Source: Chlorobiota bacterium
GTDB lineage: Bacteria; Bacteroidota; Bacteroidia; Bacteroidales; F082
Assembly: GCA_013151215.1 (NCBI GenBank)
Contig: JAADIS010000003.1
Coordinates: forward strand, 19,477-83,476
DNA length: 64,000 nt
Direction: 5' to 3'
The translations under genes and the position numbers were made by a program. The notes beneath the pieces are model-generated. The model searched no databases. It had not been told where the DNA came from and was given only the letters and a program-made list of their open reading frames with translations. This document shows positions 26,951 through 54,298 of the stretch, one piece after another; positions within the stretch are counted from its first letter, which is position 1, and every line of letters begins with the position of its first letter.

Positions 26951-27994
26951 ATGTTGACGAAACAACAACTTGACGAAATCAACGGTTTTATCAGTGATGG
27001 GAATAAGATCGTTATAACAACTCATACAAACCCTGATGGCGATGCTGTTGGGTCTTCACTGGCCGTTTACCATTATTTAATGGAAAAAGGTGCTGAGGTA
27101 ACTTCAATAGTGCCTAATAAGTTTCCGGGTTTTTATAACTGGTTATCGGCGAGTAACGAGATAATCGTTTTTGAGACCGAGGCGAAAAAAGCGAAAAAGG
27201 CCCTGTTGGGGGCTGATCTGATCTTCTGTTTGGATTATAATGCCGTCCACAGGCTTGGGGCCATGGCTGATTTGCTCAGGACGGCCAAAGGAAAAAAAAT
27301 CCTTATCGACCATCATGTTTCCCCTGAGCTTGAAAGCTTCGATTACGTTTTGTCGGATATTAACACCTCTTCGACAGGTGAGCTGGTGTATGATTTTATT
27401 GTTGCCTTGGGGGATGAGGAATTGATCGACTCGAAGGTCGCGGAATGTCTTTACACCTGTATTATAACGGATACCGGCTCTTTTAGCCATTCGTGCAACA
27501 ACCCTAAAACTTATGAGGTGATGGCAAAGCTTGTGCGCAAAGGCATCGATGCGCGAAGGCTGCATGGTCTTATATATGACACATTTTCTGAAAACCGCCT
27601 GCGCTTGTTGGGTTTTGCCATAAACGACAGAATGCTGGTCTGGGAGGAGCTTAAAACGGCACTTATTTACCTCACTAAAGATGATTTAAAAAAATATAAC
27701 TATCAAGTTGGTGATACTGAGGGAGTTGTTAACTTTGCCCTATCGATGGAAAAAGTAAATTTGGCAGTGTTGGTTACCGAAAAAGATAAAAAAATACGAT
27801 TAAGCTTCCGCTCGAAGGGGGATTTTTCCGTGAACGACCTTGCCCGTGAGCATTTCAACGGAGGAGGGCACCGCAATGCCGCCGGTGGTAACCTGAACCT
27901 GCCCATCATGGATGTTATCGACAAGATAAGGTCGGTCTTGGGCAATTACCGAACAGAGCTGAACTCTAATAACGTAAGCACTGATGCGGTTTAG
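26951..27994 (+). CDS. DHH-family phosphoesterase (NrnA-like nanoRNase/pAp phosphatase)
   Basis: A 347-residue enzyme from ATG 26951 (MLTKQQLDEINGF). The first 14 residues in the track lie in the promoter. The DHH domain shows TTHTNPDGDAVGS, LDYNAVHRLG and LIDHHVSPE, and the DHHA1 domain ends with the GGGHRNAAGG motif. Relatives hydrolyse short oligoribonucleotides and 3'-phosphoadenosine 5'-phosphate with Mn2+. It overlaps by 11 bases the first of three FKBP lipoprotein genes, so it heads an operon linking RNA turnover with envelope folding factors by position only. Confidence 0.93.
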   Translation: MLTKQQLDEINGFISDGNKIVITTHTNPDGDAVGSSLAVYHYLMEKGAEVTSIVPNKFPGFYNWLSASNEIIVFETEAKKAKKALLGADLIFCLDYNAVHRLGAMADLLRTAKGKKILIDHHVSPELESFDYVLSDINTSSTGELVYDFIVALGDEELIDSKVAECLYTCIITDTGSFSHSCNNPKTYEVMAKLVRKGIDARRLHGLIYDTFSENRLRLLGFAINDRMLVWEELKTALIYLTKDDLKKYNYQVGDTEGVVNFALSMEKVNLAVLVTEKDKKIRLSFRSKGDFSVNDLAREHFNGGGHRNAAGGNLNLPIMDVIDKIRSVLGNYRTELNSNNVSTDAV

Positions 27995-29570: not shown

Positions 29571-30902
29571 ATGAAGAAGTATTTTGCAATATCAAGTGTG
29601 ATTATCGTCTTTTTCAGTTTATTTAACGGATGCTCGAATTCTAAATATCCGGGTTATGAACTGTCCGATAATGGGGTTAACTATAAGTTTATTACTCGCT
29701 CAGCCGATACTGCAAAGGCAGAAGTATCGGATTATGTGGTAGTTAATATGACCTATGGCCTGGCCGACACCTTGTTGTTCGATAGCAAGACATTGGACGA
29801 CGAGCTGGTGTTCCCTTATATTGAGCATACATTTGAAGGCGACCTATATGATGCTTTAGGCCTTATGTCGGTCGGCGATTCGATGGCGTTCGTTATAGTA
29901 GCCGATTCGTTTTATCTTAAAACTGCCAATATGAGCAAGCTGCCAAGTTATGTAAAGGCAGGGGAACCAATGTATTACCAACTGAAACTGCTGAGGGTCG
30001 AGACAAGAAAACAATATCAGCAGGCAATATTAGGTGCCCAGATGGAGAAGAGAAAAAAGGAAATCAGCACCTTGCTCGATTATGTGCGCAACAACAAGAT
30101 CAGCAACCCACCAACAGCTAGCGGCTTATATTTTATAGAAACGAAAAAGGGCTGGGGGCACAAGCCGGGAAAAGGCGATATCTGCAACATAAGACTTATG
30201 GTTAAAACCTTGAACGGGACTCAGTTATATTCAAATCTTAAAAAAGATATACCTGTCCTGAAAGTAGAGTATGGAAAAGAGTTCGACACCAAAGGATTTA
30301 TGGAAGGCCTTGGTATGATGAAAGAAGGGGGGGAAGCCAAGCTTATTGTTCCTTCCAACATAGGTGTCGGGGCTTATGGAATGCAAGGCGTTGACGGATT
30401 TACTACCTTGGAATATAAGCTTGTACTTGAGTCAATAACACCGTTTGCTGCTGCGGAAAAACAAAGACTGGAGGAGGAGAAGATCAGAAATGCCGAGCGC
30501 GATAAAATAAAAGGCACGGAAAAGGCCAAGCTGGAAAGTTATATCAGGAAAAACAAAATTAAGGTCAGCCCTCAGCCCTCCGGGTTTTATTATATTGAAC
30601 GCCGGGCCGGCAGTGGTAAGCAAGCCGTACATGGAAGCACCGTCGAGCTTAATTACAAGCTATTCTCCATAGACGGGGACCTTATCAGCTCTTCCTATGA
30701 AAAAGGACAGCCGCTTAAATTCGTGCTTGGCACGGGAGCGGTGATCGAAGGGTGGGAGAAAGGCATAAAGCTTATGAGCGAAGGTTCTGAGGCTACTTTG
30801 GTCATTCCGTCGAATTTGGCTTATGGGAGCCAGGGAAAAGGCAAGAAGATCCCTCCATATTCAACTTTGGTGTTCGATGTCGAGCTAGTTTCTGTTAAGT
30901 AA
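29571..30902 (+). CDS. FKBP-type peptidyl-prolyl isomerase lipoprotein, three FKBP modules
   Basis: A 443-residue lipoprotein (signal VIIVFFSLFNGC). Module 1 (about 30-145) and module 2 (about 180-285, with GDICNIRLMVKTLNGTQLYS) are degenerate. Module 3 (about 335-443) is close to canonical: LKFVLGTGAVIEGWEKGIKL, LVIPSNLAYGSQGKG, IPPYSTLVFDVEL. Charged helical linkers separate the modules (EKQRLEEEKIRNAERDKIKG). The first module resembles module 1 of the upstream gene (DTLLFDSKTLDDELVF and [16 protein letters not shown]), so the genes look like products of module addition. Likely periplasmic chaperone-isomerase. Confidence 0.9.
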   Translation: MKKYFAISSVIIVFFSLFNGCSNSKYPGYELSDNGVNYKFITRSADTAKAEVSDYVVVNMTYGLADTLLFDSKTLDDELVFPYIEHTFEGDLYDALGLMSVGDSMAFVIVADSFYLKTANMSKLPSYVKAGEPMYYQLKLLRVETRKQYQQAILGAQMEKRKKEISTLLDYVRNNKISNPPTASGLYFIETKKGWGHKPGKGDICNIRLMVKTLNGTQLYSNLKKDIPVLKVEYGKEFDTKGFMEGLGMMKEGGEAKLIVPSNIGVGAYGMQGVDGFTTLEYKLVLESITPFAAAEKQRLEEEKIRNAERDKIKGTEKAKLESYIRKNKIKVSPQPSGFYYIERRAGSGKQAVHGSTVELNYKLFSIDGDLISSSYEKGQPLKFVLGTGAVIEGWEKGIKLMSEGSEATLVIPSNLAYGSQGKGKKIPPYSTLVFDVELVSVK

Positions 30903-31316
30903 TGTTTGATTGGCACTCAACTCTTTATTGTTGTTAAAGTATTTCTCGATCAGGTCTGTCAATTCCTCTACTAAAAACGGTTTTGCCAGGAAATTGTCCA
31001 TTCCCGCATCGAAACAGCTTTGCCTGTCTGTTTCCATGGCGTAAGCCGTAACGGCAATAATCTTAACCGGCGGCAAATTGTTTGCGGCTTCGTATTCCCT
31101 TATTTGAATCGTGGCATCCAGTCCGTTCATTTCGGGCATTTCCAAATCCATAAGTATTAAATCATATTTGTTCTTTTTGTAAAAACCTATGCCTAACTGG
31201 CCGTTTACGGCAATATCTGTTTTATGGCCTAATCTGTCAAGAACAATCTTCACAAACTTTATATTCATTTCGTCGTTTTCGACTAGCAGTATTCTCAGTC
31301 CTCTTACTTTTTCCAT
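30885..31316 (-). CDS. Single-domain response regulator
   Basis: A 143-residue stand-alone receiver: acidic LLVENDE, Asp57 in LILMDLEMPEMNG, Thr in AVTAYAM, Lys in FLAKPF. There is no output domain, so it probably acts by protein contact or in a phosphorelay. Its end overlaps the convergent FKBP gene by 18 bases. The hybrid kinase gene lies upstream on the same strand, across a 196-base gap with no visible gene. Confidence 0.92.
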   Translation of the reverse strand: MEKVRGLRILLVENDEMNIKFVKIVLDRLGHKTDIAVNGQLGIGFYKKNKYDLILMDLEMPEMNGLDATIQIREYEAANNLPPVKIIAVTAYAMETDRQSCFDAGMDNFLAKPFLVEELTDLIEKYFNNNKELSANQTLLNRN

Positions 31317-31512
31317 ATTAGTATTTCTTTGTTGTTGATAGTACTTAATTATTGTAAATCAAGATATATGCCATTTTTAAATTTATTGATATAATACTGG
31401 TTTTGTGATTATTAAATTATCACAGACGATAAGGTCGAGTTTCAAATCGGGACATTTTTTTTGATAATAAGACAAATAACGATCAATGTGGTTCTTAATA
31501 GAAAAATTTCCG

Positions 31513-32910
31513 CTACAAATTTAATACTTTTTCGATTACGGAAATCAATTCTGTCTTTTTTATTGGCTTCGACAAATATTCGTCGAAACCTTCATTTAAG
31601 AGTTTTTCCTTTTCATTCGACATGGCATAGGCCGTTTGGGCTATAAAAGGCGTGCTTACCATTACGGGCCAGTCTTTTTTAATCCGGTGCATAAGCGTTA
31701 TTCCGTCAAATTCACCGGGCAGGTTAATATCCATTAGCACAAAATCAATTATAAATTGGTCGAGTGCCAGCTTGGTTAGCTCATCCAGGGTCTCTTCCCC
31801 GGAACCGCAGACGACAAGTTTATTACAACCAAATAACAATTTCGTAAATAATATTTGGTTGATCTTGTCATCTTCCACAAGCAAGATATTTTTGTTTTCC
31901 CATGGAGCCTTATCGCTTATTTGCTTTTTCCTGACCTTGGGCTCTTTTTGTGCCTGGGCTACTCTTGCAAGTTGCAAACTGATGAAAGCCTCTGTCCCGC
32001 TGCCTTTTTCAGATTCGATAACAATATTGCCGTTCATCAGATGGAGGGCTTTTTTCGCAAGTGGCAAACTTAAGCCTGCTCCTTGGTATTTCGTTGAATA
32101 CCCTAAGGTTTCCTGCCTGTAAGGCTCAAACACAAGCGGGATATAAGATGGGTCGATCCCGATGCCGGTATCTTTAATGCTGATGGTAACTATATCACCT
32201 TCGCTTCTTGCGCCAACTTTAATATACCCTTTGTCGGTAAACCTAACCGAATTGTCCAAAACCGAATCGATAATCCTCCTCAGGGCATCTCTGTCTGACA
32301 AACAATTGTGGTCCAGGTCTTTATCTACTATAATCTGTAAGCCTTTCTCGTCGGCTATTTTCCTGAAGTTTGCGATCGATTCGTTGAGTATCGATTTTAA
32401 ATCGCAAGCCACCAGGTCGAAACTAATATCGTTTACCTCTATTCTGCTTATATCGATAATATCGTTTAACAGCTTGAGCAAATTCTCCCCGCTTTCGGAG
32501 ATGCTGTTCCCATACTCATATAGATCGTCCCTGTTAAGGTGGGCCATCTCGGTTTTGAGCAGGTTGGCGAAACCCAAAATCCCGTTCAGCGGATTCCTTA
32601 TTTCGTTACTGACATTTGTCAAGAAAACATTTTTCATATAATTGGCCTTTTCTTCCTTTTCTATGGAGGCTTTCAAGGACTTGTTCCTGATCTTGATGTC
32701 TTGTATGTCAATCTTTAGTGCCTGTGATTCGGATCTGTAACGGGACTCGAAACTGTTATTGGGGTTATTAAGCTCGTTTAAGTTCAGCCTGATGTCATTT
32801 TGCTTGTCGCTTATGGTTTTGGCCCAAACCGATTTTTTTCTGTAAAAAATAAATGCCGTGCTTATGGATAGCAAAACAAGTGCGATACTTAAAACATAAA
32901 ATAAGCTCAT
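31513..32910 (-). CDS. Hybrid histidine kinase-receiver with His replaced by Asn in the H-box
   Basis: A 465-residue protein: one N-terminal membrane helix (about 3-23), a coiled coil (about 30-95), HisKA, HATPase and a C-terminal receiver. The H-box reads FLTNVSNEIRNPLNGILGF where the family has SHEIRTP. Residue 102 is Asn (codon AAC, plus bases 32605-32607 gtt), so the usual phosphate acceptor is absent. The ATP-binding motifs look intact (DTGIGID, GAGLSLPLAKKAL) and the receiver has LVEDD, Asp in VLMDINLP and Lys in LSKPI. It may be a phosphatase or a pseudokinase that regulates others. It lies at the distal end of the polysaccharide locus, 6 bases after a methyltransferase gene. Confidence 0.88.
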   Translation of the reverse strand: MSLFYVLSIALVLLSISTAFIFYRKKSVWAKTISDKQNDIRLNLNELNNPNNSFESRYRSESQALKIDIQDIKIRNKSLKASIEKEEKANYMKNVFLTNVSNEIRNPLNGILGFANLLKTEMAHLNRDDLYEYGNSISESGENLLKLLNDIIDISRIEVNDISFDLVACDLKSILNESIANFRKIADEKGLQIIVDKDLDHNCLSDRDALRRIIDSVLDNSVRFTDKGYIKVGARSEGDIVTISIKDTGIGIDPSYIPLVFEPYRQETLGYSTKYQGAGLSLPLAKKALHLMNGNIVIESEKGSGTEAFISLQLARVAQAQKEPKVRKKQISDKAPWENKNILLVEDDKINQILFTKLLFGCNKLVVCGSGEETLDELTKLALDQFIIDFVLMDINLPGEFDGITLMHRIKKDWPVMVSTPFIAQTAYAMSNEKEKLLNEGFDEYLSKPIKKTELISVIEKVLNL

Positions 32911-32916
32911 GATAAT

Positions 32917-33723
32917 TTATTTGGTTTTTTCAGCAGTAAACAGGATTTCCTTCGGGAACAGCTTTAATCTTTCGACTTTCGCAGGGTCAAAATCGCCCTG
33001 TCTTATCAATTTTACCATAAAGCCTACCGATTCCAGAAGTTTGGGATAGTCTTTTCCGTACAATCTAACATGATCGAATTGCCCATAATTATCTTCTCTT
33101 TCCTTAACCGTCCTCAAATCAGTGTTCTCAAAGGTTGAATCCGTATTATTTGAATAAGGGATCTGTAATATGGCGATACCACCTTTTCTCAATGTCCTGT
33201 GCATCTCGCTAAGCGCCAGCTTGTCGTTGGGGATATGTTCCAAAACATGATTGGCAATGATTATATCAAACTCGGAATCGGAATAATGCATGTCCGTTAA
33301 GTCCACCAAAGTCATTTCGGCAGGATAGTATATTCCTTCATGGTATTTAGCGGCAGGTATATAATCAGCATTTTCAAAGGACGATAAGAACCTATATAAG
33401 CCGGGCTCCGGAGCAATATGAAGTATTTTTATCTTATCATCGAGCAAGTCGGGGCGACTATCGAAAAACAATTTCACGAACCTGTCGCGGTCGGTGCTCT
33501 GGCAATTGGGGCAGATATGGTTTCTTGTCCCTGCCCCGATAATTTCCTTTTCCCCGATAATGGGCAAATTAAAACCTCCCGGCAGCATCTTCCTGAATTT
33601 CCTGTTGCAGATGTTGCAATCACAAGAATTACCGGCATAATAAATACCCCTTAAATACAGAAATATTTTTTTTAGACCTCTGGCATAAGAATTCGGCAGC
33701 TTCTTTTTTAAATCGGAAATCAT
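32917..33723 (-). CDS. SAM-dependent methyltransferase with N-terminal zinc ribbon
   Basis: A 268-residue protein. Cysteines CDCNIC and CPNC (about 33-75) form a likely zinc ribbon. The class I methyltransferase core follows, with ILHIAPEPGLYRFL as motif I, FDIIIANHVLEHIP and HRTLRKGGIAILQIPY. Similar proteins occur in surface polysaccharide clusters, where they modify sugars or lipids. The substrate is not deducible. It is placed directly after the beta-helix gene. Confidence 0.8.
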   Translation of the reverse strand: MISDLKKKLPNSYARGLKKIFLYLRGIYYAGNSCDCNICNRKFRKMLPGGFNLPIIGEKEIIGAGTRNHICPNCQSTDRDRFVKLFFDSRPDLLDDKIKILHIAPEPGLYRFLSSFENADYIPAAKYHEGIYYPAEMTLVDLTDMHYSDSEFDIIIANHVLEHIPNDKLALSEMHRTLRKGGIAILQIPYSNNTDSTFENTDLRTVKEREDNYGQFDHVRLYGKDYPKLLESVGFMVKLIRQGDFDPAKVERLKLFPKEILFTAEKTK

Positions 33724-33729
33724 AGGCTC

Positions 33730-35391
33730 TTATTGAATTATCAACTTATGGTTTACTGAATAAGTCCCGGTATTAACCGTTAAGATACATAATTGGGGGG
33801 ACAAGCCTTTTAAATCAATTTCTATTTTATTATTTATTCCACCCTGGCAGTAGGAATCAAGCTCAAATAATTGCTTACCGTCAATCGACCGAATCGTAAA
33901 AGTGCAAACCCCGCTTTTTAAAGGCCTAATGTTTATACTAGTATAATTTTTGGCGGGGTTCGGGAAAACCTGGCCAACAAAAGCACTCTCTTTCCCGGCT
34001 TCGCCGATGGCGTCGGGGCCCTGATATTCATAGGCGCCAACATCGTAAAAAGTATTATATGGACGGTTATGGTTCAGCAGATCGAATGTTACGCCCTCGC
34101 TACTGAGATTTTTCCCGAAGTCGATGGCGATAGAGCCGTTTTTGAGGCTATAATCGTCGGACGAGGGATTTGTAAACCCAATGTCCGAAATCGAGGGCGA
34201 AAAAATATTATTGCTCAGAGTTAAATTTGCCGAAGAGGTGAGGTTGTTGACATAAGCTGATTCCCCCTCGTCAATTTTACCCGGATCCGCTATTATATTA
34301 TTGATTATGACCCCTTGATTGGCAACGGGGTTGTTATAGGTAATCCCATAGGACTTAGGGCTGACGATAGTGTTATTATAGAATTTGAAGTCGAGATTTG
34401 CGAGAGTTACAACATCGCCTACATAAATACCGTGCTTGGCAGAATTTGGGTTGCCGGGCTCAAAGCTTCTGCCGGCCCTGACTATCAAGTTGTTGTAAAC
34501 CATAAACCCTCCAAGGCCGAGGACATCGATACCATCGCCCTTGCCGTCGTAGATTTCATTGTTATAGCAATCGCAGCGGGAGCCGCCACCGATTAATATC
34601 CCCGACATCTGATAAAGCGTTTCCTTGTCCGAGTCGTAGCGGATAATATTATTATAAATACTGCAGTCCTCGTCGGATGACGATACCTGTATGCCGTCCC
34701 AACCACAATGCTCCAGAATGTTGTTGTATATCTTTACGTCTTTAATCAGGTGCGGGAAAATAGTAGTGTCGCAGGCATCCAAATAAACACCTTGTTCATA
34801 TTTCGAATGACCGATATACATGCCCTCGTCGCCGATATCGTGAAAATAACAATCGTGGATATGCAGTGAATACATAGTGAAATTATCCCTGCTGGAAGCA
34901 AAAGTGCAATCCGGGTCGGTTTTGGCGTAAAGCCCTGCTATTAATGTATTGCTGATTTCGATGTTCGAAACTTCAATATTGGTGCTCAGTTCGTCAATCG
35001 ACATGCCCGAACCATTGGCGACCCTTTTTATTTTAAATCCGTAATCGATACCTTCATAACCATTGCCAAGAAATTTTATAAATGAACAATTCGCGATCTT
35101 AATACCGTAAAAGTTGTCGGTATCGAATAAAACCTGACCATTGCTGTTGATAAAAGTTATGGGCTGGTTCTCAGTACCGTGCACGTTCTTGATAAGCAAA
35201 TAATCCTTTTGCGACGATTCGATACAAACTGTGCTTCCGGCCGGTATGCTTGTTGTTTCGCCATCAATAATAAACTCGTTGGCTGCTATTGTCATGTCGC
35301 AATCTTGCGCCGATAAGCTAAAGGTTAGTAAAGAGCAGAATAAGACAATATTTATTAGTTTTATCATGACCCTCGTTTTGCCCTTTCCCAA
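33730..35391 (-). CDS. T9SS-exported right-handed beta-helix protein
   Basis: A 553-residue secreted protein. A signal sequence (IKLINIVLFCSLLTFSLSAQ) precedes a parallel beta-helix with many short repeats rich in NN and G (YNNILEHCGWDGIQVSSSDE, IYNNIIRYDSDKE, CYNNEIYDGKGDGIDVLGLG). The type A sorting domain at the end starts VGQVFPNPAKNYTSINI. Beta-helix proteins of this kind are often polysaccharide lyases or hydrolases, but no catalytic residues could be assigned. Its position inside the polysaccharide locus suggests it binds, trims or anchors the polymer (inference). The start codon may be internal, at MIKLINIVL. Confidence 0.85.
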   Translation of the reverse strand: MGKGKTRVMIKLINIVLFCSLLTFSLSAQDCDMTIAANEFIIDGETTSIPAGSTVCIESSQKDYLLIKNVHGTENQPITFINSNGQVLFDTDNFYGIKIANCSFIKFLGNGYEGIDYGFKIKRVANGSGMSIDELSTNIEVSNIEISNTLIAGLYAKTDPDCTFASSRDNFTMYSLHIHDCYFHDIGDEGMYIGHSKYEQGVYLDACDTTIFPHLIKDVKIYNNILEHCGWDGIQVSSSDEDCSIYNNIIRYDSDKETLYQMSGILIGGGSRCDCYNNEIYDGKGDGIDVLGLGGFMVYNNLIVRAGRSFEPGNPNSAKHGIYVGDVVTLANLDFKFYNNTIVSPKSYGITYNNPVANQGVIINNIIADPGKIDEGESAYVNNLTSSANLTLSNNIFSPSISDIGFTNPSSDDYSLKNGSIAIDFGKNLSSEGVTFDLLNHNRPYNTFYDVGAYEYQGPDAIGEAGKESAFVGQVFPNPAKNYTSINIRPLKSGVCTFTIRSIDGKQLFELDSYCQGGINNKIEIDLKGLSPQLCILTVNTGTYSVNHKLIIQ

Positions 35392-36557
35392 TTTACGGAT
35401 TGCTGCCCTTTTAAAAACCGTTGAAACCCGAGGTAAACGGCATAGTTCATAACGAAAAAGTAGTACGGTACGAACAATATCTTTATGCTGATCTTTTTGT
35501 TTTCGAGAAACCAGCCCAACATTGCGAAAACGTAGAACAATACCTGGGCATAAAAAAGCAAGGTGTAAATATTTGAAAAAGAAGTTATTCCGGCATTTAA
35601 GGCCAGGAAAAAATTAAAGATAAATATAAAAGGCAATGCAAGAGGGGCAAGCGTCCAGCGCAAAACCCTGTGTGAAATGTATTGAAAGCTAAGGGTTTTA
35701 TATTTAAAGATATTAAGCAAAGGACTTAACCTAATTATTGATTGAATACCCCCGGCAGCAATCCTTATCTTACGTTTGAGTTCTTCCTGTACGTTAGCCG
35801 AAGAGCTTTCTATCGCATAGGCTTCAGGATCATATTGAATAGTGTAACCTTCCATGGCAACTCTTAATGAAATAATGAAGTCGTCGAGAAGTGTATCTTT
35901 TTCAACTTCGCGGAATAATTCTGTTCTAATTGCGAAAAGTTCCCCCGCTGCACCCACAACGGAATAAAGTTCGGCATCCCATTTTTTTAGTTTGGATTCA
36001 TATTTCCAATAAATCCCTTCACTACCCACGGCTGAGTCGGAATCCTTCTTGAAAATCCGTTTTTCGCCTGATACACAGCCTACTTTGGGGTCTTTGAACA
36101 TATTTACTATCCGTTGGATCGATTCTTCACCTAGCATGGTGTTTCCATCGGAGAATATCACAATGGGCGACTTGACAAATTTCATGCCCCTGTTCATGGC
36201 ACCTATTTTTCCGCCTCTGGCATCTTCATGATAAACTTCCACGCCCCGGTCTGAATATTTCTTCAAAATATCAGGCGTTCCGTCGTCCGATCCATCGGTT
36301 ACCCAAACTTGTCTTACTTTGTCCTTATTATATTTAAGACTGAACGAGTTTTCGACCTTGGCATCAACATAATCTTTTTCGTTATATGCTGCAACGAACA
36401 ATGTAACTTCTGGTTCATAGTCTTCATCGATATTCTTTTTTGAACTGCCGAATATCCTTTTAAGTTTAACCAAGAAAAACAATAGAATTCCATAACCCAA
36501 ATAGGCATAGAAAACAATGAAAAGCAAAAGCCAGAATATAAATTCCAATGTGTTCAT
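35364..36557 (-). CDS. Membrane glycosyltransferase family 2 (processive-type)
   Basis: A 397-residue protein with an N-terminal membrane helix, then a GT2 domain (PEVTLFVAAYNEKDYVDAKV, QVWVTDGSDDGTPDI, IVIFSDGNTML, DDFIISLRVAMEGY) and three or more C-terminal membrane helices. A RRxR-like substrate gate is only partly present (LKRKIRIAAGGIQS). It is expected to act at the inner membrane in polymer assembly. Its end overlaps the beta-helix gene start by 28 bases. Confidence 0.88.
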   Translation of the reverse strand: MNTLEFIFWLLLFIVFYAYLGYGILLFFLVKLKRIFGSSKKNIDEDYEPEVTLFVAAYNEKDYVDAKVENSFSLKYNKDKVRQVWVTDGSDDGTPDILKKYSDRGVEVYHEDARGGKIGAMNRGMKFVKSPIVIFSDGNTMLGEESIQRIVNMFKDPKVGCVSGEKRIFKKDSDSAVGSEGIYWKYESKLKKWDAELYSVVGAAGELFAIRTELFREVEKDTLLDDFIISLRVAMEGYTIQYDPEAYAIESSSANVQEELKRKIRIAAGGIQSIIRLSPLLNIFKYKTLSFQYISHRVLRWTLAPLALPFIFIFNFFLALNAGITSFSNIYTLLFYAQVLFYVFAMLGWFLENKKISIKILFVPYYFFVMNYAVYLGFQRFLKGQQSVNWERAKRGS

Positions 36558-48841: not shown

Positions 48842-51781
48842 TTATTCCTCCTTTCTGATATTAATCTTGTATTTTAAAGGATAGGAGAGTACATTTTTAA
48901 TCTTTTTTATCAATGCTTGTCTCTTGCTCTTAGGTAAGGATGTCAGTAATTCCTCAAGGTTATAAAGTTCAACTTCGTTGAGGATTACCATAGGATCAAT
49001 ATTAATGGAACCCTTAAATATATCAAGAGCGTTTTTATCGGCTTTTTGCAAGCTGCTGTTTGCTGATACTACCAGTAAAACACTATCTGCCAAATTGATG
49101 AGCTTTATCGGGTAATTATTGTAAACTATTGAAGGCAACTCGATAAACATATAATCATATTCATAGTTTTCCTTCCTGATATTTTTTGCGTTCAACAAAT
49201 CGGGTATCGAATCCAAGTCGATGAAATCGTTACCAATCTTATAGGTGAACGAATAATTATAATCTTCTTCAAACTCGTTTTCGTTATCCTTGCTATAGTT
49301 GGCGTATAGTATTGTATGTCCCATGTCGCGCAGTCGGTTAACGATTTTCTGGCCCAATAAAGTCTTGCCCATTTTGTCCTGGGTGGAAACCATAAGGACA
49401 ATTTTCGGTTTTTTATCCTCATCCTGGGATCTTGCAAGCTTGACTTTGATATTTTGGATGATCATGTCAACCAACCTTCCGGTAATACGGGCTAATTCCC
49501 TGGCCTGGGCTGCCGAGCCGATTCGCGGGTAGGCACCTGCAAGCTCCAGTTTGGTTTCGTATTTAACCCTGTTTGGGCTCTTGACTGAAGAGTCGAAGTA
49601 TTCAAGGATAAGTATTACGAATGCCACCATGATAAGGCCGAACATAAATGCTGCCGCAATAAGTATTTTTGTTTTTGACGCTTTTGGCGAAATAGGGAAG
49701 AAGGCAGGGTCAACAACCTTTATGTTGGTTGACATATCAAGTCGCTGCTGCTTCATCTTCGCAGCGTTCAGGCTTCGTAAAAGCTCGAGGTAGGATTGTT
49801 CGGCAACCTTTATTTCGCGCTCTATTCGTTTAAGCATAGCACCGAGCGGCGCAAACTTTTGGTATGTCCTCACAAAATCCATCTTGCGCCTTGCCAAAAC
49901 AATAAGTGCGGCTTTTGCCTCCTCATAGCTTAGGGTGTTCGTCAACCAGCTTTCCAGCAATGTTTTTATCGGCATCCCCTGGGTTGAATGGCTATAAAGG
50001 AAAAGTTGGTCCACATACAGCTTTATATGGTCCTGTAAGTCTTTTTGCCTCAGGCGAAGCATGTTTAGCTTGTTCTTCGTCCTTTCGTCATAACTTTCCG
50101 ATAACTCGTTAAGCACTATTGCCTCAGTAATATCCGAGAGTTCTTTTTTCATTTGGTTTATCTCGTCGCTTTTCAGGTAAATACTGTCCCTGGCCGTTAA
50201 GTTAGTCTCAAGTTCCCTGAGCGACGAAGCCGACGAAGCCATCCTTACCTGTTCGTTTTGATAATATAGGTCGAGGTCTTCTTTCTGGCTTGCTATATAT
50301 TTACTCTGCTCATAGTAGTTGATGATATTGTTCTTCATATTGAACTTCAACAAGCGGTCTTCCGCTTCCTGGAGCTTTTTGTCTGCCAGGGCAACCTGTT
50401 CCTCAAAATAGTTAATAACAAGGTTTGTCTCGTTTTCGCGGAGCATCTTATAATTTTTCATAAAAACCTTTGATAAAATCTTAAGTGTCTGCTGGCATAT
50501 CCCGGGATCATCGGCTGAATAGATGATCTTTACCATATCGCTGTTCTTCTCCCTAAAGACCTGAAGTTGAGAGATTTTGGCAATACTATAATGGGGGTGC
50601 TGGCCATAATGCAATAGTCCGTAGATAAAGTTGCTGTCGTTGGCGCTATAGAAGGCCATCAAATTATTAAAAGTTTTCTGGAAGTCCTCCGGATTAATTC
50701 CTGATGGAGTTATGGGGTCTTTTTTTGATGCATCGGTACTACTGCTGATAGTAGTACTTATCTTAGTTGTAATGCCATCATAATTATCGTTGTTTGAGGA
50801 AACCGGGCTCGATTGAACAACAATCCCGGGTGAGACCTGTTTTACGGCATAGTCATAAGAAGAGCCCTGGTTTGACAAAGAATTATAACCTTGTTCGATT
50901 ATTATTTTCTGTCCGGGACTTAATGCCCTGTTATTCAAGTTATTGTTTTCGCGAAGCTTGCTTATGTTGATACCGTAGCGCTTAGCAATCGAATAGAGGG
51001 TCTCGCCACGCTTTACCGTATGGTATTTGGAAGTCATGCCCGAGGGAGTGCTTTTTTTGATAATAATTGATTGTCCTCCGGATAAATCGCCGGTGGTAAG
51101 GTTGTTCAGGTCCATCAGCTGCCCTCTGGATACTCCGTACCTACTGGCAATTTCCGATAATGATTCGCCTTGCTGGACCTCATGGAAAACATAATTGTTG
51201 TTATCGACAGCTGCCCTGTCCTTCCCGACGCCGGCAGAAGACCTGAATGCGGGGTCAACATATCCGTCTTGACGAATTTTGTTCTGGGCGGCTTTATTCT
51301 TCTTTTTGGTAATTTCTCTTTCAAGGGAGGTGATTTCTTTTTCGAGGTTTTTGATCTGTTCCTCCTTCTCGCGCTCTATTCCCGATTTATTGTATTTTAC
51401 AACTAAGTCCTTAACCCTTTTTGGTATAAACTCCTGGAGTTTCTTATAATGTTCTTTCGAGATGTACTGATTATTGTAGCTTTCGAGGGAAAGATCTTGT
51501 GCCAATAGCCAAAGTGAGGTGGAGACAATGGTTTGGCGCGAGCTTAACATAGCAATTATATTGTCGAACTGAGCGCTGGTTGTAAAAAAGTTTGAGCTTT
51601 GCTGCGTATTGGACTCAATGGAATAACCTGTTGTAATACCCGTATAGATCAACACTTCCGATTCATACTCCAAAGTTTGGTTCCTGGTTAAGAAATAGAC
51701 CACAAAGGCCAAGATTAGCGGAATGGCTATTAGTATTACCAAGTTACGTTTAAAAAGCTTTAAAAACTGACCAATATCCAT
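48842..51781 (-). CDS. Wzz/Wzc-like polysaccharide co-polymerase carrying two LysM domains and a degenerate kinase domain
   Basis: A 979-residue inner-membrane protein. N-terminal Wzz domain with a membrane helix at 11-31. Two LysM domains are inserted in the periplasmic part, about 199-242 (HEVQQGESLSEIASRYGVSR, LSGGQSIII) and 253-296 (YHTVKRGETLYSIAKRYGIN, LSPGQKIII). A long coiled-coil GNVR-type region follows, then a second helix at about 705-730. The C-terminal domain resembles a BY-kinase but has a poor P-loop (VSTQDKMGKTLLG), a Walker B-like MFIELPSIV without the usual Asp, and no Tyr cluster at the end. LysM binds peptidoglycan, so the chain-length regulator may be tied to the wall. 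It is probably not an active tyrosine kinase. Confidence 0.9.
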   Translation of the reverse strand: MDIGQFLKLFKRNLVILIAIPLILAFVVYFLTRNQTLEYESEVLIYTGITTGYSIESNTQQSSNFFTTSAQFDNIIAMLSSRQTIVSTSLWLLAQDLSLESYNNQYISKEHYKKLQEFIPKRVKDLVVKYNKSGIEREKEEQIKNLEKEITSLEREITKKKNKAAQNKIRQDGYVDPAFRSSAGVGKDRAAVDNNNYVFHEVQQGESLSEIASRYGVSRGQLMDLNNLTTGDLSGGQSIIIKKSTPSGMTSKYHTVKRGETLYSIAKRYGINISKLRENNNLNNRALSPGQKIIIEQGYNSLSNQGSSYDYAVKQVSPGIVVQSSPVSSNNDNYDGITTKISTTISSSTDASKKDPITPSGINPEDFQKTFNNLMAFYSANDSNFIYGLLHYGQHPHYSIAKISQLQVFREKNSDMVKIIYSADDPGICQQTLKILSKVFMKNYKMLRENETNLVINYFEEQVALADKKLQEAEDRLLKFNMKNNIINYYEQSKYIASQKEDLDLYYQNEQVRMASSASSLRELETNLTARDSIYLKSDEINQMKKELSDITEAIVLNELSESYDERTKNKLNMLRLRQKDLQDHIKLYVDQLFLYSHSTQGMPIKTLLESWLTNTLSYEEAKAALIVLARRKMDFVRTYQKFAPLGAMLKRIEREIKVAEQSYLELLRSLNAAKMKQQRLDMSTNIKVVDPAFFPISPKASKTKILIAAAFMFGLIMVAFVILILEYFDSSVKSPNRVKYETKLELAGAYPRIGSAAQARELARITGRLVDMIIQNIKVKLARSQDEDKKPKIVLMVSTQDKMGKTLLGQKIVNRLRDMGHTILYANYSKDNENEFEEDYNYSFTYKIGNDFIDLDSIPDLLNAKNIRKENYEYDYMFIELPSIVYNNYPIKLINLADSVLLVVSANSSLQKADKNALDIFKGSINIDPMVILNEVELYNLEELLTSLPKSKRQALIKKIKNVLSYPLKYKINIRKEE

Positions 51782-52692: not shown

Positions 52693-53919
52693 TCAAACAT
52701 TATCCTTCTGCAGCAATGCAGGAATCGTCCTTAAAATAAGTTTTATGTCCCCCCAAAATGAATAATTGTTAGCATACTGATTATCAAGCATTTTGCGCTC
52801 TTCTTCGCTCATCACGCCCTTTTTCCCCCTTAATTCCACCTGCCACAGACCTGTTATTCCGGCGGGTCCCATGAACCGCAGGCTCCAATCGTCGGATGTT
52901 AATAACTCTGCCTCGTACAAAGGCAGGGGGCGGTTGCCCACAATTGACATATCCCCTTTTAGAACGTTAAATAGCTGGGGTAGTTCGTCAATACTGGTGT
53001 TCCTGATAAAATTACCAACTTTGGTGATCCTGGGGTCATTGGATATTTTTATGAACGTGGAGTCTGTTAGTTCCTTTTTTTGTTTTATATACCAGTTCTC
53101 ACATATCTTGTGACCTTTGATATACAGGATAGGGGAACAATGCTCGCCTTCGGGAAGTTTTGCGCATTCGGGGCAGTTGAAATCCAGTTCGTAGTCCTTC
53201 TCGGCTTTTTTTTCTTTTCCCCCGTTCTTGCCGTCGGAGTATTGATTCAAATGTTTTAGCTCGGCAAGCTTGGCATCGGCGCCGGTGTACATTGACCTGA
53301 ATTTCAGGAAATCGAATATTTTATATCCCGTGCCGACCCTTTTGCTCTTATAAACTATGGGGCCTTTCGACTCAAGCCGTATGGCAAGGGAAACTATAAG
53401 AAGTATGGGTGAGATCATGAGGAGCACGCTGGCAGATACCAGTATGTCGAAGCCTCTTTTCATCAATGGTATCTTATACTCGTATTTTTTCTTCTTTTTG
53501 ACTTTTTGGTCAAGTATTTCGGAATAGTACTGTTGAAGCGACCTAATGCGGTTATAGATATCTATCGGTTTTACCGGATAAAAATAAAGATCGTCGATTA
53601 TGCCCTTTGCTGCAAAGGATTTTTTTAATAAATCGTCGTCTTTTTCAAACGCGAGCAGAATAATCGGCGTTTTCAATAACCTTTTGTTCCCTCTTAAAAT
53701 CCCTGCATACTCTATACCGTTCATTCCGTACATGAAAGCCTCGCAAACGATAGCATCTATGTCCTCGTCCGATTTAATATAACTATTGGCCTTTAGTCCA
53801 TTATCGAACTGTGTAAGCGCAAATAACTCAGTGTTCGCCCTTAAGTCCGCAATAAAGTTTTCGTTGCTTCCAACATAAAGAACTTGCAATGGTGAGCGAG
53901 TGGGATTTTCCATAATCAA
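52693..53919 (-). CDS. Initiating sugar-1-phosphate transferase with pseudo-receiver and four-Cys insertion
   Basis: A 408-residue protein. Residues 11-130 form a receiver-like fold in which the phosphate-accepting Asp is Glu60 (DAIVCEAFMYGMNG) and the acidic pair is absent; Lys117 (YPVKPID) remains. One membrane helix follows at about 158-180. The bacterial sugar transferase domain has RVGTGYKIFDFLKFRSM, DPRITKVGNFIRNTSIDELP and GDMSIVGNRPLPLY. Between these, residues 225-290 insert a Cys-rich segment (C249, C252, C261, C273). It should move a sugar phosphate to undecaprenyl phosphate and start each repeat unit. It follows a receiver gene by 13 bases. Confidence 0.92.
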   Translation of the reverse strand: MIMENPTRSPLQVLYVGSNENFIADLRANTELFALTQFDNGLKANSYIKSDEDIDAIVCEAFMYGMNGIEYAGILRGNKRLLKTPIILLAFEKDDDLLKKSFAAKGIIDDLYFYPVKPIDIYNRIRSLQQYYSEILDQKVKKKKKYEYKIPLMKRGFDILVSASVLLMISPILLIVSLAIRLESKGPIVYKSKRVGTGYKIFDFLKFRSMYTGADAKLAELKHLNQYSDGKNGGKEKKAEKDYELDFNCPECAKLPEGEHCSPILYIKGHKICENWYIKQKKELTDSTFIKISNDPRITKVGNFIRNTSIDELPQLFNVLKGDMSIVGNRPLPLYEAELLTSDDWSLRFMGPAGITGLWQVELRGKKGVMSEEERKMLDNQYANNYSFWGDIKLILRTIPALLQKDNV

Positions 53920-53932
53920 AAAATTTCGGAAA

Positions 53933-54298
53933 CTAGATTAGTAGGTTTTCAATCCTAATCGCCAATTCTTCCGGGTTAAAGGGTTTGACTATATAATCGT
54001 TTGCGCCCAGCTTTAGGCATTTAACCCTTTCAACACTACTTTCAATGCCCGAAAGCATTATTATGGGTATGTGTTTGAAGAAACCGCTCTCTTTTATTTT
54101 TTGCAATAATTCGTATCCGTCCATGTTCGGCATTTGTATATCAGCAACAATTAGGTCGGGCATATTACCTTCCTCTAGCGATTTCAATGCTTCGATACCG
54201 TCGTTGGAGGTGGTGACATTATAGCTTTTTCCCAAAAAATTCTCGAGTAACATTCTGATACTTAATTCATCGTCTATAATGAGTATTGTTTTCTTCAT
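53933..54298 (-). CDS. Single-domain response regulator heading the polysaccharide locus
   Basis: A 121-residue receiver: IIDDELS, Asp53 in LIVADIQMPNMDG, Ser in IMLSGIE and Lys in YIVKPFNPEEL. It has no output domain. It is the first gene of the cluster and directly precedes the initiating transferase, which bears a pseudo-receiver, so dimerisation or competition between the two is an attractive inference. Confidence 0.93.
   Translation of the reverse strand: MKKTILIIDDELSIRMLLENFLGKSYNVTTSNDGIEALKSLEEGNMPDLIVADIQMPNMDGYELLQKIKESGFFKHIPIIMLSGIESSVERVKCLKLGANDYIVKPFNPEELAIRIENLLI

Follow-up and report, generated by a model that had tools for sequence, protein, structure and literature searches.

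A putative hybrid pseudo-histidine kinase and recurrent histidine loss at a Bacteroidales polysaccharide locus

The window analysed here is a 64,000-nucleotide stretch of contig JAADIS010000003.1 (assembly GCA_013151215.1, Chlorobiota bacterium, order Bacteroidales), in which an exopolysaccharide operon ends with a hybrid kinase gene, HK1. The H-box of its product reads SNEIRNPLNG (translation of the minus frame 32910-31513), with asparagine at the position of the phospho-accepting histidine. This raises the question of whether the asparagine is an error, a mark of decay or a residue held by selection, and of what such a protein could do at a polysaccharide locus. The gene and its parts are as follows.

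31513..32910, minus strand: hybrid pseudo-histidine kinase (HK1), 465 aa, with a TM helix, a coiled coil, HisKA with Asn102, HATPase_c and a receiver
32605..32607, minus strand: codon AAC, Asn102 at the phospho-acceptor His position (plus strand reads gtt)
32593..32595, minus strand: codon AAT, Asn106 (H+4), giving ExxN together with Glu103
31966..32295, minus strand: HATPase_c (CA) domain, N, G1, F and G2 boxes intact
31534..31887, minus strand: receiver domain of HK1 itself, five of five active-site residues present

HK1 matches the Pfam families HisKA (residues 93-158), HATPase_c (206-315) and Response_reg (342-459), all above the gathering cut-offs, and thus possesses the three domains and the CA boxes of a HisKA hybrid kinase but not the phospho-acceptor histidine. 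Asn102 aligns exactly to the histidine column of the orthologues and its AAC codon was confirmed in the nucleotides, as the first-pass annotation of this DNA had read it. To that annotation the ATP-binding motifs and the receiver appeared intact, and all the listed residues are indeed present: N-box Asn220, G1 Asp247, Gly249 and Gly251, and G2 Gly277 and Gly279 in the CA domain, and Glu346/Asp347, Asp394, Thr426 and Lys448 in the receiver. The N-terminus consists of a hydrophobic helix that leads into a long helical, coiled-coil-like stretch, with no sensory region. In the predicted structure the DHp, CA and receiver folds are normal (mean pLDDT 80.6), but the pTM of 0.44 makes the placement of the domains uncertain. 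HK1 is the sole exception among the 45 HisKA matches of this genome, the other 44 having the histidine. A second histidine that takes over, which had been named as a possible refutation, was not found as a conserved residue in HK1, given that His124 in the DHp domain is Gln in one member of the genus. With its histidine replaced and no conserved substitute, HK1 would be unable to perform normal His-to-Asp donation, as first proposed. A scan of positions 30850-33000 for sigma-70 promoters and terminators gave terminators no better than the shuffled background and promoters only slightly above it.

The neighbouring genes that place HK1 in other genomes are the following.

30885..31316, minus strand: lone receiver, 143 aa, matching by synteny the receiver of HK2, a second hybrid kinase found in other families; Asp14 changed to Asn (VEND)
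32917..33723, minus strand: methyltransferase directly upstream of HK1, synteny anchor
33730..35391, minus strand: 553-aa protein flanked by the glycosyltransferase and the methyltransferase, likewise a synteny anchor, with the look of a secreted right-handed beta-helix by eye
35364..36557, minus strand: glycosyltransferase, anchor for the locus search in other genomes

HK1 is present in four of the five genomes of the genus, where it follows the methyltransferase and precedes the lone receiver wherever the contig permits, and all four copies carry Asn102. The other three copies exhibit 91%, 63% and 56% protein identity to that of the window; one relative is a Bacteroidetes metagenome bin (JAJRQZ010000103.1), and the fourth copy in the genus (G004) appears divided between two contigs. 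Genus member G001 lacks both the anchor glycosyltransferase and the receiver and is uninformative on the histidine. Across the four members the codons are AAC, AAC, AAT and AAT for Asn102, and AAT, AAC, AAC and AAT for Asn106. A check in related genomes had been advised, and the asparagine proves not to be confined to one assembly; since four genomes encode it with differing synonymous codons, assembly or sequencing error was ruled out as its source.

The dN/dS of HK1 against the 91% relative is 0.158, with neighbouring genes at 0.015 to 0.239. Between the more distant members of the genus synonymous sites have reached saturation, and yet both asparagines are kept, suggesting that Asn102 and Asn106 are held by selection. 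The CA and receiver domains of the window's genus lie at 0.85-1.09 times the distance of intact-His orthologues to outgroups, and the DHp domain has diverged more than that of one reference (G019) but less than those of three others. It is very improbable that HK1 is the decaying remnant of a two-component system that has been lost: the joint loss of the sensory region and the histidine, and the repeated degeneration of the gene and its neighbour elsewhere, would fit a relic, but the frame is open under the constraint given above, the catalytic residues of the CA and receiver domains are conserved at 56-63% identity, and Asn102 has undergone synonymous turnover. HK1 therefore lacks the histidine while being retained in the genus under purifying selection, and the comparisons identify it, at the level of sequence, as a genuine, genus-fixed hybrid pseudo-histidine kinase whose ancestor was an active sensor kinase at this polysaccharide locus.

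The orthologues in most other genera of the family are 760-919 aa long; an additional region of approximately 350 aa extends their N-terminus, and their SHEIRTPLNG is intact. Within the order, hybrid kinases with SHEIRTP are orthologues of HK1, given their shared locus and neighbours and an identity of about 35-45%, but unlike HK1 they are mostly of this greater length, with a sensory N-terminus and the histidine. Synteny with these proteins shows that the ancestral kinase had approximately 800 aa, a sensory N-terminus and SHEIRTP. The window's genus is without both the sensory region and the histidine; its HK1 start codon lies 6 bases past the stop codon of the methyltransferase, leaving no room for a sensory region. 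Nine of the 69 columns conserved in 34 intact orthologues are changed in the genus, and His102 is the only catalytic one among them, whereas Glu103, Arg105, Pro107, Asn220, Asp247, Gly249, Gly251, Gly277, Glu346, Asp394 and Lys448 are kept. At H+4, Thr has become Asn in the window's genus, while all other orthologues compared have Thr or Ser. The first-pass annotation overlooked this ancestral histidine and sensory region of approximately 350 aa, as well as the repeated loss of the histidine in other genera and families.

The locus was located across the family and the order by means of the glycosyltransferase at 35364, and reading the genes downstream of this synteny anchor yielded 69 orthologues. 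The histidine is absent in 15 of these 69 orthologues, where it is replaced by Asn in genera g1 (n=4) and g3 (n=2), Tyr in g3 (n=2), Gln and Ser in g3 (n=1 each), Phe in g11 (n=3), Arg in one genome of family f100 and Ser in one of family f101. On a maximum-likelihood tree from which the histidine column was excluded, parsimony requires at least six losses and eight residue changes; support for the deep nodes of the tree is weak (27-74). Cases without the histidine occur in five genera, each among relatives that have it, which makes five losses safe unless the histidine was regained, and the gene at this locus has thus undergone at least five or six independent losses. By comparison, 722 of 76,471 HisKA domains in general (0.9%) lack the histidine (PMC12632262). 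An earlier set selected by E-value had shown the histidine intact in 34 of 34 orthologues outside the genus, but that set was biased, as degenerate orthologues fell under the cut-off and the losses were hidden; the idea of a one-off event was dropped once the synteny-based set replaced it.

Among the 69 orthologues, loss of the histidine tracks loss of the sensory region, being seen in 12 of 20 short proteins versus 3 of 49 long ones (naive Fisher 4e-6, kinship ignored). The CA motifs checked are kept in 12 of the 15 His-less orthologues, one of these 12 having Gly279 changed to Ala in the G2 box, which argues that ATP binding still matters. Sister genus g3 has lost both the histidine and the Glu but kept the CA domain, and the His-less proteins of genus g11 have lost the CA domain too. 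A search of 393 genomes of the order with the DNA pattern SNE[..]xPLN recovered two other genomes only, with other kinase-like proteins of a different make-up; the pattern missed the further His-less lineages because they use other residues or a different H-box. SNEI[RS]TPLN is found in a receiver-kinase protein of genome G043 (L106 3442-4545) and in a longer hybrid kinase of G494 with an N-terminal repeat-like region (L107 1-2160), and genus g3 has a paralogous hybrid kinase of approximately 600 aa at another locus with GFDVRTP, Phe standing for His (L042 4578-6440, L051 6303-8096).

The degeneration extends to the genes that follow HK1. In other families the first kinase is followed by HK2 (403-463 aa), whose histidine is intact in some families but replaced by Gln, Tyr or Asn in 7 of 18 proteins, several of them with degraded ATP-binding boxes as well. 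The HK2 receiver is intact in all 18, and in the window's family only the lone receiver remains of HK2. A mirror image of the window case is seen in genus g15 (L068, L069, L105), where the first kinase keeps SHEVRSP but its own receiver lacks the acid pair (EP/DP) and carries further active-site changes that differ between members. The degradation of HK2 and the receiver degeneration of g15 thus show that different lineages discard different parts.

Pseudo-histidine kinases are already known, and what is new is their recurrence at one conserved locus together with the co-degeneration of a partner. The recurrence of the loss at one locus, together with the altered partner, is of more interest than the single substitution. 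Few pseudo-histidine kinases have been studied. A literature search found no published account of such a Bacteroidales locus. The lineages differ in what remains to them (Glu and Thr/Asn, ATP site, receiver, sensory region), and a single syntenic gene with repeated losses and differing leftovers offers natural replicates in which to ask which of the remaining activities is under selection. A broader proposal, which is doubtful at present, is that the polysaccharide-locus module of the order repeatedly sheds His-Asp phosphotransfer, its tandem kinases losing the histidine, the sensory part or kinase halves while the CA domain and selected receivers stay, and that the window's pseudo-kinase and altered receiver form a coupled non-canonical pair. 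If true, the essential job of the module would be independent of His autophosphorylation, and ATP-gated or partner-phosphorylating pseudo-kinases would be a stable end state.

The altered receiver is the product of 30885, in which the motif VEND is present in four of four genus members and corresponds to VEDN or VDDN in orthologues. The changed residue is the second of the two Mg2+-binding acids (Asp14 to Asn), and the active site is complete, with five of five residues, in all 55 other lone or second-kinase receivers at the locus. In a wider sample of 168 readable receiver sequences from the fetched loci, some rows of which are repeats, this position is Asp in 160 and Pro in three (the g15 hybrid receivers), with Asn only in the window's genus. 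Seven of 31 conserved positions are changed in 30885, five of them at or near the active site in sequence (Asp14, Asn15, Ile58, Gln59 and Lys115). The protein fits the definition of a pseudo-receiver by Bourret et al., which is without one or more of DD, D, T and K (PMC12632262), but differs from the pseudo-receivers described there in 2025 in that the change affects the second acid alone, which is followed by Asp (EDN to END). This Asp-Asn to Asn-Asp swap may shift the acid pair, and 30885 has likely, though not provably, lost the ability to be phosphorylated. The first-pass annotation suggested that HK1 might sense the receivers 30885 and 53933; the latter is intact, whereas 30885, with its acid changed in this genus alone, is a poor candidate for a sensed phospho-receiver.

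HK1 and 30885 could also be constitutively paired, as a structural or allosteric complex that serves polysaccharide assembly independently of phosphorylation. The His-less kinase and the changed acid pair coincide in the same four genomes, the receiver change is absent from all the others of 59 receivers at the locus, and the clustering of five of the seven changes around active-site residues points the same way. Such a pair is nevertheless quite improbable, as the receiver of HK1 itself retains five of five active-site residues and other His-less lineages retain an intact receiver; moreover, the kinase and receiver changes map to one branch, so that their co-occurrence is a single event and the link between them is suggestive only. 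The receiver gene (minus strand) converges with a gene of an FKBP-like series at 29571-30902 (plus strand), with an 18-base overlap; three FKBP-like genes (by eye) stand in a row at 27984, 28592 and 29571, and they lie beside the locus in most relatives.

A close parallel to HK1 is RetS, a Pseudomonas hybrid sensor kinase that regulates exopolysaccharide and type III secretion. RetS does not autophosphorylate, as is predicted for HK1, and like HK1 it has HisKA phosphatase residues and a receiver. HK1 matches RetS (PDB 6dk8) with an E-value of 3e-21, which reflects sequence similarity only and is no claim of orthology. RetS keeps its histidine and has a degenerate ATP-binding domain, whereas in HK1 the reverse is seen, the histidine being lost and the CA motifs intact. 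Although unable to autophosphorylate, RetS acts by transmitter phosphatase activity, transfer of phosphate onto its own receiver and inhibition of a partner (PMC5992135). Phosphatase residues of the RetS type (E, and T/N at H+4) are kept in HK1 as Glu103 and Asn106, and NtrB and CrdS likewise have Asn at H+4. CrdS depends on this Asn for its phosphatase activity, and changing its histidine (H-to-A) reduces that activity without abolishing it (PMC3510030). A phosphatase role, which the first-pass annotation had raised, is thus plausible with Glu103 kept and Asn at H+4. HK1 is quite possibly, though still tentatively, a RetS-like pseudo-kinase that does not autophosphorylate and serves as a phosphatase or phosphate sink and as a partner-binding regulator of a polysaccharide signal; its activity, its partner kinase and its effect on polysaccharide are inferred. 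HK1 would be a membrane-anchored dimer and, having lost its histidine, would no longer phosphorylate itself. Its DHp domain (Glu103, Asn106) would dephosphorylate receivers, its intact receiver would take phosphate from another kinase, and the retained CA domain would set its conformation or pair it with another kinase. As a result, the signal controlling polysaccharide production would be held down or buffered. The altered adjacent receiver counts against the RetS-like phosphatase reading, as does the finding that the DHp domain alone suffices for phosphatase activity in NtrB and EnvZ, where the CA domain only raises it (PMC3510030). Frequencies of histidine loss in HisKA versus HisKA_3 lend no support to phosphatase as a general role of pseudo-kinases (PMC12632262), and since g3 has lost the Glu and kept the CA domain, phosphatase cannot be the function common to all His-less lineages.

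Retention of the CA domain might instead mean that HK1 acts as a CA donor in a heterodimer, its ATP-binding domain phosphorylating the histidine of a partner kinase in trans. His-less kinase mutants phosphorylate a partner in trans in complementation tests. The CA conservation in His-less orthologues described above, including the g3 proteins that lack both His and Glu, and a CA divergence in the window's genus no greater than in intact orthologues are consistent with a donor, but no obvious partner is found among the 44 other HisKA domains of the genome and g11 has lost the CA domain as well, which makes it unlikely.

Two further genes of the window bear receiver or receiver-like domains.

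53933..54298, minus strand: single-domain receiver, intact, at the opposite end of the polysaccharide operon from HK1
52693..53919, minus strand: initiating sugar transferase, N-terminal receiver-like domain without phospho-Asp and acid pair, family-wide

The intact receiver would suit a sensor of the DivL type, in which the DHp domain binds a phosphorylated receiver, leaves it unchanged and relays the information. In DivL, a Caulobacter pseudo-histidine kinase, the phospho-acceptor His is replaced in a natural, conserved protein, as in HK1, but by Tyr (or Ala) and not Asn, and DivL, as described, contains PAS domains but no receiver and is a weak ATP binder devoid of phosphatase activity (PMC4211667). 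HK1 has Asn102 in place of the Tyr of the DivL family, and conserved CA motifs and ExxN besides, and efficient phosphorylation of 30885 is unlikely without its metal-binding acid in the genus; such a sensor is therefore an improbable account of HK1. The precedents of CrdS and RetS, together with the kept ExxN and the receiver of HK1, favour a RetS-like regulator over both a CA donor and a DivL-like sensor.

In the sugar transferase, the receiver-like domain has lost the acid pair and its phospho-Asp is changed to Glu in almost every one of the 18 genomes compared, and the domain is, by its residues, a predicted family-wide pseudo-receiver fused to an enzyme. The 979-aa product of the gene at 48842-51781 (minus strand) combines LysM domains with a GNVR domain and may be a Wzc-like chain-length protein whose LysM repeats are unusual.
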